DNA from: Accumulibacter sp.
GTDB taxonomy: Bacteria; Pseudomonadota; Gammaproteobacteria; Burkholderiales; Rhodocyclaceae
NCBI RefSeq assembly: GCF_029255285.1
Contig: NZ_JAPUVI010000091.1
Span: forward strand, 1 to 60,155
Direction: 5' to 3'
DNA: 60,155 bases
Under the pieces are notes generated by a model. It was not told the origin of the DNA and searched no databases. It saw only the letters and a list, made by a program, of their open reading frames with translations. The translations under genes were made by a program, and so were the position numbers. This document shows, piece by piece, positions 50,770 to 56,013 of this stretch. Positions within the stretch are counted from its first letter, which is position 1, and each line of letters starts with the position of its first letter.

Positions 50770-51456
<687 letters not shown>

Positions 51457-51725: not shown

Positions 51726-54140
51726 ATGTCATCATTTTTGATCTTCGCACTGGTATGTGCGGTCATTGCGGTGCTGTACGGGGCCGCCATGACGAAGTGG
51801 ATTCTCTCGTTGCCGGCCGGCAACCCGCGCATGCAGGAAATCGCCAAGGCCATTCAGGAGGGCGCTTCCGCGTATCTCGCCAAGCAGTACACCACCATCG
51901 GCCTGGTCGGCGCCGTGTTGTTCGTGCTGATCTGGCTGGCGCTCGGCAAGTTGATGGCTTTCGGTTTCCTGATTGGTGCCGTGCTGTCGGGAGCCACTGG
52001 CTTCATTGGCATGAACGTTTCCGTACGCGCCAACGTGCGGACCGCCGAAGCGGCACGCAATGGCATTGCGTCGGCGCTCAACGTCGCCTTCAAGGGTGGC
52101 GCCATCACCGGCATGCTGGTAGTCGGCCTTGGCCTGCTCGGAGTCGCCGGCTACTACGCGTTGCTCAAGGGCTCGGGCGCCGACCTTCAGCACAGTGTCG
52201 AGCCGCTGGTCGGCTTGGCCTTTGGTGGGTCGCTGATCTCGATCTTTGCTCGGCTGGGCGGCGGCATCTTTACCAAAGGTGCCGACGTCGGGGCAGATCT
52301 GGTCGGCAAGGTCGAAGCTGGAATTCCGGAGGACGATCCGCGCAACCCGGCGGTCATCGCCGATAACGTCGGCGATAACGTCGGCGACTGCGCGGGCATG
52401 GCCGCCGACCTTTTCGAGACCTACGCCGTGACCGTCGTCGCGACGATGGTGCTCAGTGCGATGATGCTCAAGGGCGTCGTCGGTGCCAACGACAACCTGG
52501 TCGTTTATCCGCTGGTACTCGGCGGCGTGTCGATCGTCGCCTCAATCATCGGCTGTTTCTTCGTCAAGTCGAACGACGGCGGCAAGATCATGAACGCCCT
52601 CTATCGCGGCCTCGCCGTTGCCGGTGTCCTCGCCCTGGTCGCCTTCTATCCGGTGACCACCATGTTGCTCGGCAGTGGTGTGACCCTGGCGGACGGTAGC
52701 ATGATCAGTTCGATGAACATCTTCTGGTCGGCGGCGGTTGGCCTTATTCTCACCGGCTTGCTGGTCTGGATCACCGAGTACTATACCGGTACCGACTTCT
52801 CGCCGGTCAAGCGCGTCGCCGAAGCATCGACCACCGGCCACGGGACCAACATCATCGCTGGTCTTGCCGTTTCCATGAAAGCCTGTGCGCTGCCGGTGCT
52901 GTCCGTCTGCGCGGCGATCTACATCACCTTTGCACTGGCCGGTCTGTACGGCATCGCCATCGCCGCCACCTCAATGCTGTCAATGACCGGCATCATCGTC
53001 GCCCTCGACGCCTACGGGCCGATTACCGACAACGCCGGCGGTATCGCCGAAATGTCCGGCCTGCCGAAGTCGGTTCGCGACGTGACCGACCCGCTCGACG
53101 CCGTCGGCAACACCACCAAGGCGGTGACCAAGGGGTATGCCATCGGTTCGGCCGGTCTGGCGGCGCTCGTCCTGTTCGCCGACTACACGCATGCGCTCGA
53201 GGTCAATTTCGGTGGCGGCCTGCGTTTCGATCTGTCGGACCACATGGTGATCATTGGCCTTTTTCTTGGCGGACTGATTCCCTATCTTTTCGCCGCGATG
53301 GCCATGGAAGCGGTCGGTCGCGCGGCCGGCTCCGTGGTCATCGAAGTACGGAGGCAGTTCAGGGAAATCAAGGGCATCATGGAAGGCAAAGCCAAGCCCG
53401 ACTACTCGCGCGCCGTCGGCATGCTGACCATAGCCGCTATCCGCGAAATGATCATCCCCTCGCTGTTGCCGGTACTCGTACCTGTCCTCGTTGGCCTGCT
53501 GCTCGGTCCGAAAGCCCTGGGCGGGCTGTTGATGGGAACGATCATCACCGGCCTCTTCGTCGCCATCTCGATGACCACCGGTGGTGGCGCCTGGGACAAC
53601 GCGAAGAAGCACATCGAGGACGGGCATTTCGGTGGCAAGGGTTCTGATGCCCACAAGGCTTCGGTGACTGGCGACACGGTCGGCGACCCGTACAAGGACA
53701 CGGCTGGTCCGGCGGTCAATCCGCTGATCAAGATCATCAATATCGTCGCCCTGATGATCGTGCCGCTGATGGTTCCCGCGTCGACCGCCAAGCCGGTTGC
53801 CGAGGCGCCGGCGAAGGTGGTCGCGATCATCCCGGTTGCCAAGGTTTACTTCGCGATGGGCTCGGCTGAATTGCCCGCCGACGCGTCGAAAACGCTCGAA
53901 GCGATCGTCCAGCACGCCAAGGCCAATACGGCTGTCAAGCTGGCTATCTCGGGTTTCCATGATCCGAGCGGCAGCCAAGCGGTCAACGAGGAAATTGCCA
54001 AGAATCGTGCCAAGGCGGTACGTGATTCGCTGAAGAACGTGGGGATTGCCGAGGAGCGCATCGAGCTGAGGAAGCCGGAAGTCACCAGCGGTACCGGAGA
54101 CCCGGCCGAGGCGCGTCGCGTCGAGGTCAGCGTGCAATAA
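51726..54140 (+). CDS. hppA: K+-independent proton-pumping pyrophosphatase fused to a C-terminal OmpA-like domain
   Basis: Membrane H+-PPases couple pyrophosphate hydrolysis to H+ export. The 804-residue product has an H+-PPase core to about residue 682: '[40 protein letters not shown]', the catalytic DNVGDNVGD motif, and '[31 protein letters not shown]' near the end. [10 protein letters not shown] with Lys465 and Thr468 marks the K+-independent class. Normal HppA stops after the last helix. Here an Ala/Lys linker and about 100 residues of OmpA-like fold follow ([19 protein letters not shown]..., [15 protein letters not shown]), with Asp746 and Arg761 kept. M-PPase C-termini face the periplasm, so the extra domain could bind peptidoglycan. 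Start ATG 51726 follows GGAGG; the next adk stop is 269 nt upstream. Confidence 0.96.
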
Positions 54141-54374: not shown

Positions 54375-55919
54375 TTACAGGTATTGACTGGCCAGCAGCG
54401 CGGCCAGCAGCGCGGCCAGGAGGGCGCTGATGAGCGCCAGCAGGCGCCCCTGCCGGCGCTGCATGCGCGTCAGCTCGGCGAGCAGTGGCGTCAGATCGGC
54501 CGCTTTCGGTTGCGCCAGCGCCTGGTGCACCAGACGCGGCAACTGCGGCAAGGTGCGCGCCCAATACGGGGCTTCCTGCTGTATGCCGAGGCGGAAGGCG
54601 TGGCGGCCAATCTGTTCGCTCATCCAACGTTCCAGGAAAGGCTTTGCCGTTTTCCACAGGTCGAGATTCGGGTCGAGCTGGCGACCGAGGCCCTCGATGT
54701 TGAGCAAGGTTTTTTGCAGCATGACCAGTTGCGGCTGAATCTCGACGTTGAAACGGCGCGAGGTCTGGAACAAGCGCAGCAATACCCGGCCGAACGAGAT
54801 TTCGTGCAGCGGACGGTCGAAGATCGGTTCGCAGACAGCGCGGATCGCAGCTTCGAACTCGTCAGCCCGGGTGTTGGCCGGCGCCCAGCCAGCTTCGATA
54901 TGCGCCGTGGCGACCCGTTTGTAGTCGCGCTGAAAGAAAGCGAGAAAGTTCTGCGCCAGGTAGTTTTTGTCGGCGTCGGTCAGCGTTCCGACGATGCCGA
55001 AGTCAAGCGCGATGTAGCTGCCGTGGTGAACCGGGTCGACGGCGATGAAAATGTTTCCCGGATGCATGTCGGCGTGGAAGAATCCATCGCGAAAGACCTG
55101 GGTGAAGAAGATCTCCACCCCGGCGCGCGACAGCGCCGGCAGATCGATTCCCGCGGCAATCAGCGCTTCCGTCTGGCTGATCGGGATGCCGCGCATGCGT
55201 TCCATGACCATCACCGTGGTCGTGCATTGATCCCAATAAACTTCGGGAACCTGCAGCAGGCGCGAGCCGCTGAAGTTGCGCCGCAGTTGCGAGCAGTTGG
55301 CGGCTTCGCGCATCAGATCGAGTTCGTCGTAGAGGTACTTGGCGAACTCGCCGACGACTTCACGGGGTTTCAGCCGTTTGCCGTCCGACCACACTTTTTC
55401 CAGTACGCCGGCGAGCGTTTCGAGCAATGCCAAGTCGTTGGCGATGACCCCGTGCATTGCCGGGCGCAGCACCTTGACCGCCACCTCGTGGCCGCCGTCC
55501 TCCGGGCGCAAGCGAGCGAAGTGTACCTGGGCAATGGAAGCGCTGGCGACCGGGGTGGCATCGAATTCGGCGAATACTTCGCTCGCTGGACGGCCGTAGG
55601 CGTTGGCGATCTGCGCCAGCGCAAGCTCCGAGGAGAAGGGCGGCACGCGGTCCTGCAGCTTGGCCAGCTCGTCGGCGATGTCGGTACGCAGCAGATCACG
55701 ACGGGTAGACAGGACCTGGCCGAACTTGACGAAGATCGGTCCGAGCGACTCCAGAGCCTGGCGCAGGCGCACGGCGGGTGGAGTATCGAAGCGTCGCCAG
55801 AAGTGCAGGGCGCGCGACAAGGCGGCCAGGCGGCCGCTTGGCTCATGCTCGAGGATCATCTCGTCGAGGCCGTAGCGGCTCGCAATGCTCAATATTTTGG
55901 CGAGACGGAAAAGTCGCAC
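54375..55919 (-). CDS. ubiB: ubiquinone biosynthesis protein kinase-like UbiB
   Basis: UbiB is an atypical kinase-like ATPase of the ABC1/ADCK family needed for ubiquinone synthesis. From GTG 55919 it has 514 residues: [23 protein letters not shown] aligns with the E. coli N-terminus; a longer frame to 56009 would enter the argS promoter. It has the KxGQ motif '[15 protein letters not shown]', Ala-rich loop '[14 protein letters not shown]', 'VAVKVLRP', the '[12 protein letters not shown]' catalytic loop and LDFGIVG. A hydrophobic C-terminal helix pair, [22 protein letters not shown], anchors it. Divergent from argS. Confidence 0.94.
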
Positions 55920-56013
55920 GGCGGGCGGCAGCGTTCTGGTCGGCAATGGCGCGAGTTTACACAGAAACCGGTATCCCCGCTCTGCCGTTCGCCCGAGTGT
56001 GCGTCGCACATCG

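Follow-up and report, generated by a model that had tools for sequence, protein, structure and literature searches.

The 60,155-nucleotide contig NZ_JAPUVI010000091.1 of a genome of Accumulibacter, a polyphosphate-accumulating wastewater bacterium, is referred to below as the window. It contains the gene hppA, which encodes a presumably H+-pumping membrane-bound pyrophosphatase (M-PPase) fused to a C-terminal OmpA-like domain. The domain is OmpA-like both by sequence and by predicted fold, and we judge from sequences and structural models that it probably (at a probability of roughly 0.65) serves as a peptidoglycan anchor tethering the pump to the sacculus. The periplasmic C-terminus of the pump would carry the OmpA-type module on a flexible Ala/Pro-rich linker, and the module would grip the diaminopimelate of peptidoglycan stem peptides, most likely via Asp746 and Arg761, so that an inner-membrane pump would be held on the sacculus. 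Anchoring could restrict diffusion, cluster complexes or fix the spacing between membrane and wall. Inner-membrane proton pumps and oxidases are usually pictured as freely diffusing. Should wall binding by the module prove true, the pyrophosphate pump would be kept on the sacculus in entire lineages, among them a main phosphorus-removing bacterium of wastewater, and the oxidases and reaction centres of relatives would be kept there too.

The fused pump and its conserved Asp/Arg pair

The frame of hppA is uninterrupted, and its product joins a full-length pump to the extension that a preliminary description of this DNA, made from the letters alone, had proposed. The H_PPase domain of Pfam (PF03030) is found with 895.8 bits against a cutoff of 29.7 and covers the profile from 1 to 645 of 645, and OmpA (PF00691) follows at residues 708–781 with 45.3 bits against a cutoff of 27.2 (E 1.1e-11). 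The whole-length H_PPase domain above its curated cutoff places the protein among the M-PPases, together with the NCBIfam model NF001951 (Table 1). NF001951 is named sodium-translocating and TIGR01104 H(+)-translocating, and the window protein exceeds the cutoffs of both. The M-PPase motifs at residues 187–197, 203–221 and from 649, which we take to be catalytic, are present and do not vary among 23 fused proteins. The alignment with the K+-insensitive pump 8b37 spans residues 2–686 of the window protein, and an 11-residue stretch at 461–471 presumably marks the K+-independent pump type. By a measure applied to 66 fused pumps, the linker behind the core is 23 residues long in the window protein and ranges from 20 to 79 residues (median 35). 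The extension, which had been placed at 53767..54140, is real, and only the start coordinate lies one base out of frame, a trivial difference.

The structure predicted for the module has the OmpA/Pal fold (predicted local distance difference test, pLDDT, 94.2). The motifs quoted beforehand lie where they had been placed (an 11-residue motif from residue 707, GFHDP from 743 and a 10-residue motif from 760), and Asp746 and Arg761 are 15 residues apart. In A. baumannii OmpA, Asp271 and Arg286 bind diaminopimelate, and both residues are conserved in PA0833, whose OmpA-like domain binds insoluble peptidoglycan in a dose-dependent manner (PMC5974059, in the part of the article available). The suggested correspondence of Asp746 and Arg761 to this pair agrees with that account, and in all five solved relatives compared (5 of 57 listed) the Asp and the Arg are aligned, the stretch from one to the other being free of gaps. 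Across all hosts, 138 modules were compared; Arg761 is present in 138 and Asp746 in 136, the conservation of Asp746, of a Lys-Pro and of an Arg-Arg being partly selected for by the scan patterns and that of Arg761 and Asn754 not. The patterns were [IV]SG[FY]HD[AP][TS]G and one around KP, and only open reading frames (ORFs) with RR[VI] near the end were retained. The 138 modules include many Accumulibacter sequences, and the class called oneTM also takes in a small number of ordinary OmpA-family proteins encoded by the window genome. Asn754 is present in all 138 modules but in only 23 of 27 genomes of the genus; Gly749 and Asn754 are both altered in the other four, which keep Asp746 and Arg761. 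Identity with Pal proper was considered and rejected, as the equivalog model TIGR02802 gives 36.1 bits against a curated cutoff of 125.35. Thus, the module is an OmpA-family domain and not Pal itself.

Within Accumulibacter, the fused gene is the rule. It was matched in 28 of 28 genomes and is readable to its end in 27 (in G025 it is cut by a contig edge), and all 27 have the domain with Asp746 and Arg761. Two of these, G005 and G014, are single-contig assemblies. A sequencing or assembly error at the junction, which had been named as the way in which the extension might prove spurious, is ruled out by the presence of the extension in close relatives. Among 13 genes of the genus, the ratio of nonsynonymous to synonymous substitution rates (dN/dS) is 0.042 in the pump core, 0.319 in the linker and 0.123 in the domain, and the last value indicates that the domain is under purifying selection. 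In a scan of named genomes, of which the best 80 of at least 518 module relatives were kept, the closest matches to the domain among those 80, from which records of the window's own genome may be missing, are Accumulibacter records (up to 90% identity). One such record (L083) and a genome of the genus (L007) have an identical pump C-terminus. In another Accumulibacter (L237, from G026), the linker has grown into many near-identical Ala/Pro/Val repeats. A second, divergent pump (33–34% identity), whose match ends at residue 684–702, is found in 6 of the 28 genomes (G002, G004, G008, G012, G013 and G026) and was not found in that of the window.

Table 1. Features of the hppA region of the window, with the basis of each assignment.
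Feature	Coordinates	Strand	Basis
hppA, membrane-bound, presumably H+-translocating pyrophosphatase with C-terminal OmpA-like domain, 804 amino acids (aa)	51726..54140	+	open frame; Pfam H_PPase and OmpA; NCBIfam NF001951, 1189.9 bits (cutoff 859)
H_PPase domain, residues 13–678	51762..53759	+	Pfam; 8b37 alignment
last helix, residues 641–682, containing the 11-residue catalytic motif (649–659)	53646..53771	+	AlphaFold2 model; motif positions
Ala/Pro/Val-rich linker, residues 684–702, predicted disordered	53775..53831	+	pLDDT <50
OmpA-like module, residues 704–803	53835..54134	+	Pfam; predicted fold (pLDDT 94.2); fold matches; AlphaFold2 model
Asp746, counterpart of A. baumannii OmpA Asp271	53961..53963	+	136/138 modules (partly selected for by the scan); 27/27 in genus
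Arg761, counterpart of A. baumannii OmpA Arg286	54006..54008	+	138/138 modules; 27/27 in genus
adk, adenylate kinase, directly upstream of hppA (context)	50803..51456	+	Pfam ADK
ABC1/UbiB-like protein, downstream convergent neighbour (context only)	54375..56009	-	Pfam ABC1

Distribution of the fusion and of its module

The domain search, alignment with solved OmpA-family relatives and survey that had been proposed as checks gave OmpA similarity and a fusion that extends well beyond the genus, and a fusion unique to the window organism is thereby ruled out. A fused pump is encoded in at least 24 of 399 genomes of the order, in 13 sampled families, and all 24 were read as loci. In the same 399 genomes, a pump was matched at 1e-50 in at least 256, divergent second-type pumps included. 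Both counts are lower bounds, the best two (pump) or nine (fusion) candidates per genome having been scored, and the copy in G500 was excluded from the fusion count with two stops within its match. In a draw from the family, 125 of 199 genomes have a pump match and 12 a match extending at least to residue 756; six of these 12 belong to the window's genus. In one of the 12 (G067, locus L045), the OmpA domain is canonical (GHTDSTG) and does not resemble the common module, a sign that this fusion may be independent. In a class-wide draw, 5 of 369 genomes were matched at 1e-24 and only the window's own match is an HppA fusion; this draw was thin and missed known fusions of Lysobacterales. Fused pumps make up 37 of the best 80 named loci, including two of Lysobacter, one of another Lysobacterales and one of Pseudoxanthomonas.

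Three states of the pump can be distinguished (a bare pump, a pump with a domain-less tail, and the full fusion), and they interleave on the pump tree. This tree was built from 124 pump ORFs, of which 119 were long enough and 107 remained after removal of identical ones, and the set is enriched for fused proteins; L057, first labelled as tail, is counted as fused, its gene being cut by the contig end and completed in L196. Over the 107 cores, the fused label changes 17 times, with at least 10 changes forced by strong branches. The tails without a domain are 34–63 residues long and often Ala/Pro-rich (L034, L039, L058, L060, L062, L063, L066, L068, L069 and L070), and they may be remnants of the fusion or a separate state in their own right. 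The tree of the module itself (100 columns; 126 rows after thinning of the 138 for near-copies) mixes the hosts, is little resolved and is compatible with a single HppA origin. Two module loci (L104 and L107) lie in metagenome bins named Syntrophobacter and Anaerolineae, perhaps as misbinned betaproteobacterial contigs or through transfer.

The module is also found on other energy-transducing proteins, which lay beyond the view of a reader of the window alone. By Pfam, it stands behind the COX2 domains of CoxB of the aa3 oxidase (L133, L163, L164, L165, L167, L168, L169, L170, L176, L218 and L230), behind the FixP_N and cytochrome domains of CcoP of the cbb3 oxidase (L101, L106, L107, L146, L173, L231 and L232) and at the C-terminus of the photosynthetic reaction-centre cytochrome PufC (L171, L172, L180, L235 and L236). 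NCBIfam equivalogs exceed their cutoffs in all five proteins tested (CoxB in L163 and L168, ccoP in L101 and L106, PufC in L172). Further hosts are HlyD/CusB-type efflux adaptors (L178 and L234), DUF937 proteins that end in the module (L174, L175, L222, L226 and L233), BON-domain proteins (L188, L213 and L223) and an ammonium transporter, Amt (L239 in G481, 140–2071), with an N-terminal module behind a signal-peptide-like start, an end expected to be periplasmic.

For a count of hosts, a profile of 40 modules was run against 300 genomes of the order (completeness filter 90, threshold 1e-22, best 16 candidates per genome scored) and gave 65 matches in 43 genomes. Hosts were assigned from fetched loci, HppA by motif, the one-helix group and the BON-type L214 by sequence and the others by Pfam. 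The 65 matches fall on HppA (20), CoxB (10), CcoP (3), PufC (4), HlyD-type adaptors (2), Amt (1), DUF937 proteins (4), BON-type proteins (4) and small one-helix proteins (15), with two left without an assigned host. Thus, 37 of 65 are on energy-transducing complexes (HppA, CoxB, CcoP and PufC), a share inflated for HppA because the profile includes many HppA modules; excluding HppA, the figure is 17 of 45. Genomes with an HppA-borne module more often encode a further module protein (10 of 20, against 23 of 280 others; Fisher p 6e-6), and the same holds by genus (8 of 13 against 13 of 127; p 6e-5), with kinship above the genus uncorrected. In L155, the pump has only a domain-less tail, and the module is encoded on a one-helix protein whose frame opens immediately behind the stop of the pump; an adk-like frame lies upstream of this hppA too, by reading of the frame and no Pfam scan. 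In L109, a one-helix protein of this kind, also bearing the module, directly follows a fused pump. Parts that are fused in some genomes and neighbours in others usually have a working link. Stand-alone copies of the module share no neighbour by eye across the frames of 15 loci, except hppA in L155, L109 and, further off, L132.

Since its relatives terminate CoxB, CcoP and PufC and also occur in a one-helix protein next to hppA, the module looks like a reusable wall anchor for energy-transducing complexes. A broader proposal, to which we give slightly less than even odds, is that a single family of compact modules that bind peptidoglycan has been transferred repeatedly, in Burkholderiales and some Lysobacterales, onto the periplasmic ends of proton-motive-force machines (HppA, the aa3 and cbb3 oxidases and the reaction-centre cytochrome) and also of a few transporters, and that it fastens these proteins to the sacculus. 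If true, the bioenergetic complexes of these bacteria would be anchored to the wall, diffuse less freely and keep a set distance from it.

Topology of the pump and alternatives to wall anchoring

M-PPases have 16 membrane helices and a C-terminus outside the cytoplasm. The hydropathy of the window protein shows 16 peaks in the core and one over the linker and strand 1 of the module, and in the AlphaFold2 model the core ends in a single helix with the catalytic motif, followed by the linker and the domain. With the catalytic motif in the last helix and the known topology of M-PPases, the chain should leave the membrane on its outer side, and we infer that the module lies in the periplasm. M-PPases are homodimers (PMC12614893, available part). 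Each pump would thus carry two modules. The reach of the linker depends on its length: a fully stretched chain spans ~0.35 nm per residue, which gives a maximum of roughly 7–28 nm for linkers of 20–79 residues and ~8 nm for the 23 residues of the window protein.

Several observations weigh against a wall anchor. The short linker of Accumulibacter could make reach a limit there. The linker and strand 1 are hydrophobic in many fused pumps, with a 19-residue scan reaching at least 1.2 in 48 of 66 and at least 1.6 in 15 of 66 (1.58 in the window protein), values that would by sequence alone be compatible with a 17th helix. Most pumps of the order lack the module (24 fused, against 256 genomes with a pump match), and its patchy presence and frequent change of state on the HppA tree indicate that it is dispensable. 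A second protein with this type of module was not found in the window's own genome, where the next best OmpA matches are at 2.6e-11 or weaker, against 5e-45. The Pal and other OmpA models of NCBIfam match the window protein only below their cutoffs, and five to six residues that OmpA domains usually have in their C-terminal part are absent from the module. Finally, OmpA-type domains can bind proteins instead, and complexes of Pal with TolB and of YfiB with YfiR are among the fold matches.

This last point is the basis of the strongest alternative, in which the module binds another periplasmic protein, or another copy of itself, with a role in pump assembly, dimer stability or regulation and not in wall anchoring. 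The matches to TolB–Pal (2hqs, 2w8b and 4r40) and YfiB–YfiR (5eb1 and 6ikk) are joined here by the dimeric state of the PA0833 OmpA-like domain in solution (PMC5974059, available part) and by the homodimeric pump itself. Conversely, the diaminopimelate-contact pair is among the most conserved residues, and the sharing of the module by unrelated hosts argues against one host-specific partner, so we consider a protein partner unlikely. An improbable alternative is a sensor: the module would respond to how far away the wall is, or to its state, and alter pump activity, coupling proton pumping to envelope growth or stress. A conserved module on a flexible linker would suit this role, and an OmpA-type protein, YfiB, takes part in a signalling complex. 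However, a linker of variable length that is predicted to be disordered is poor for mechanical signalling, and the same module on CoxB, CcoP and PufC would demand a shared control, of which nothing here gives a sign.

Slightly less probable again is that a promiscuous OmpA-type module was added by chance to tolerant termini and rides along with no role in the pump. The changes of label on the HppA tree and the existence of tail-only and broken forms fit such a passenger, but its retention in every readable Accumulibacter genome, the dN/dS of the domain and the invariant Asp/Arg pair do not: a neutral tail would not keep this pair while neighbouring residues drift. Least probable is that the hydrophobic Accumulibacter linker forms a 17th membrane helix and leaves the module in the cytoplasm, out of reach of the wall. 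The peak at residues 698–716 and the similar or higher peaks of many fused pumps (up to 2.08, in L092) speak for such a helix. Against it, this stretch of the window protein includes strand 1 of the module, and AlphaFold2 gives disorder and then a strand for it, with no helix; among other fused pumps the peak is as low as 0.55 (L160), and Ala-rich linkers raise such scores by composition.

Relation to known systems

H+-PPases with a C-terminal OmpA-like domain in Paucibacter and others were described in a review of 2024, with their role left open (PMC11210485). The preliminary description had known of no characterised example; the architecture was already in print, and the main text of that article reports no functional work on the fusion and does not use the word peptidoglycan. 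The M-PPase of Paucibacter sp. KCTC 42545 (UniProt A0A0U2VTE8; 810 aa) has the same architecture and is predicted to be K+-insensitive, and the other fused examples named in the available part of the article are from Burkholderiales (PMC11210485). In a literature search whose coverage excluded most subscription journals, this article, available in part, was the only one found on HppA with OmpA, and nothing was found on OmpA modules of CoxB, CcoP or PufC. Thus, the HppA–OmpA architecture is known, whereas no publication was found on the conserved binding pair, on the occurrence throughout Accumulibacter or on the module's spread to other proton-motive-force machines.

The fold, the Asp/Arg pair and a conserved Arg-Arg near the end are common to the module and the OmpA C-terminal, Pal and PA0833 domains (3td3–3td5, 4g4v and 6jfw). 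Domains of this type sit on outer-membrane proteins or lipoproteins, whereas the host in the window is an inner-membrane ion pump, and its module lacks the five to six residues late in the domain. MotB and TagL, whose structures are among the fold matches, likewise belong to inner-membrane machines with a periplasmic OmpA-type domain. The stator (MotB) and secretion (TagL) machines need anchoring to work; to our knowledge, no such need has been described for a pump driven by pyrophosphate. A further relative is PsaB of photosystem I (7f4v, chain aB, presumably from Gloeobacter violaceus), in which residues 756–840 of 872 match the module profile (41 bits, E 2.3e-9). A wall-binding role for the PsaB domain was reportedly suggested by Inoue in 2004; the main text of a Gloeobacter photosystem paper that cites that work contains none of the terms peptidoglycan, OmpA, C-terminal or extension. 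The host of this domain is cyanobacterial, unlike the window pump, and the match shows that the presence of a domain of this kind on an energy-transducing complex has a precedent.
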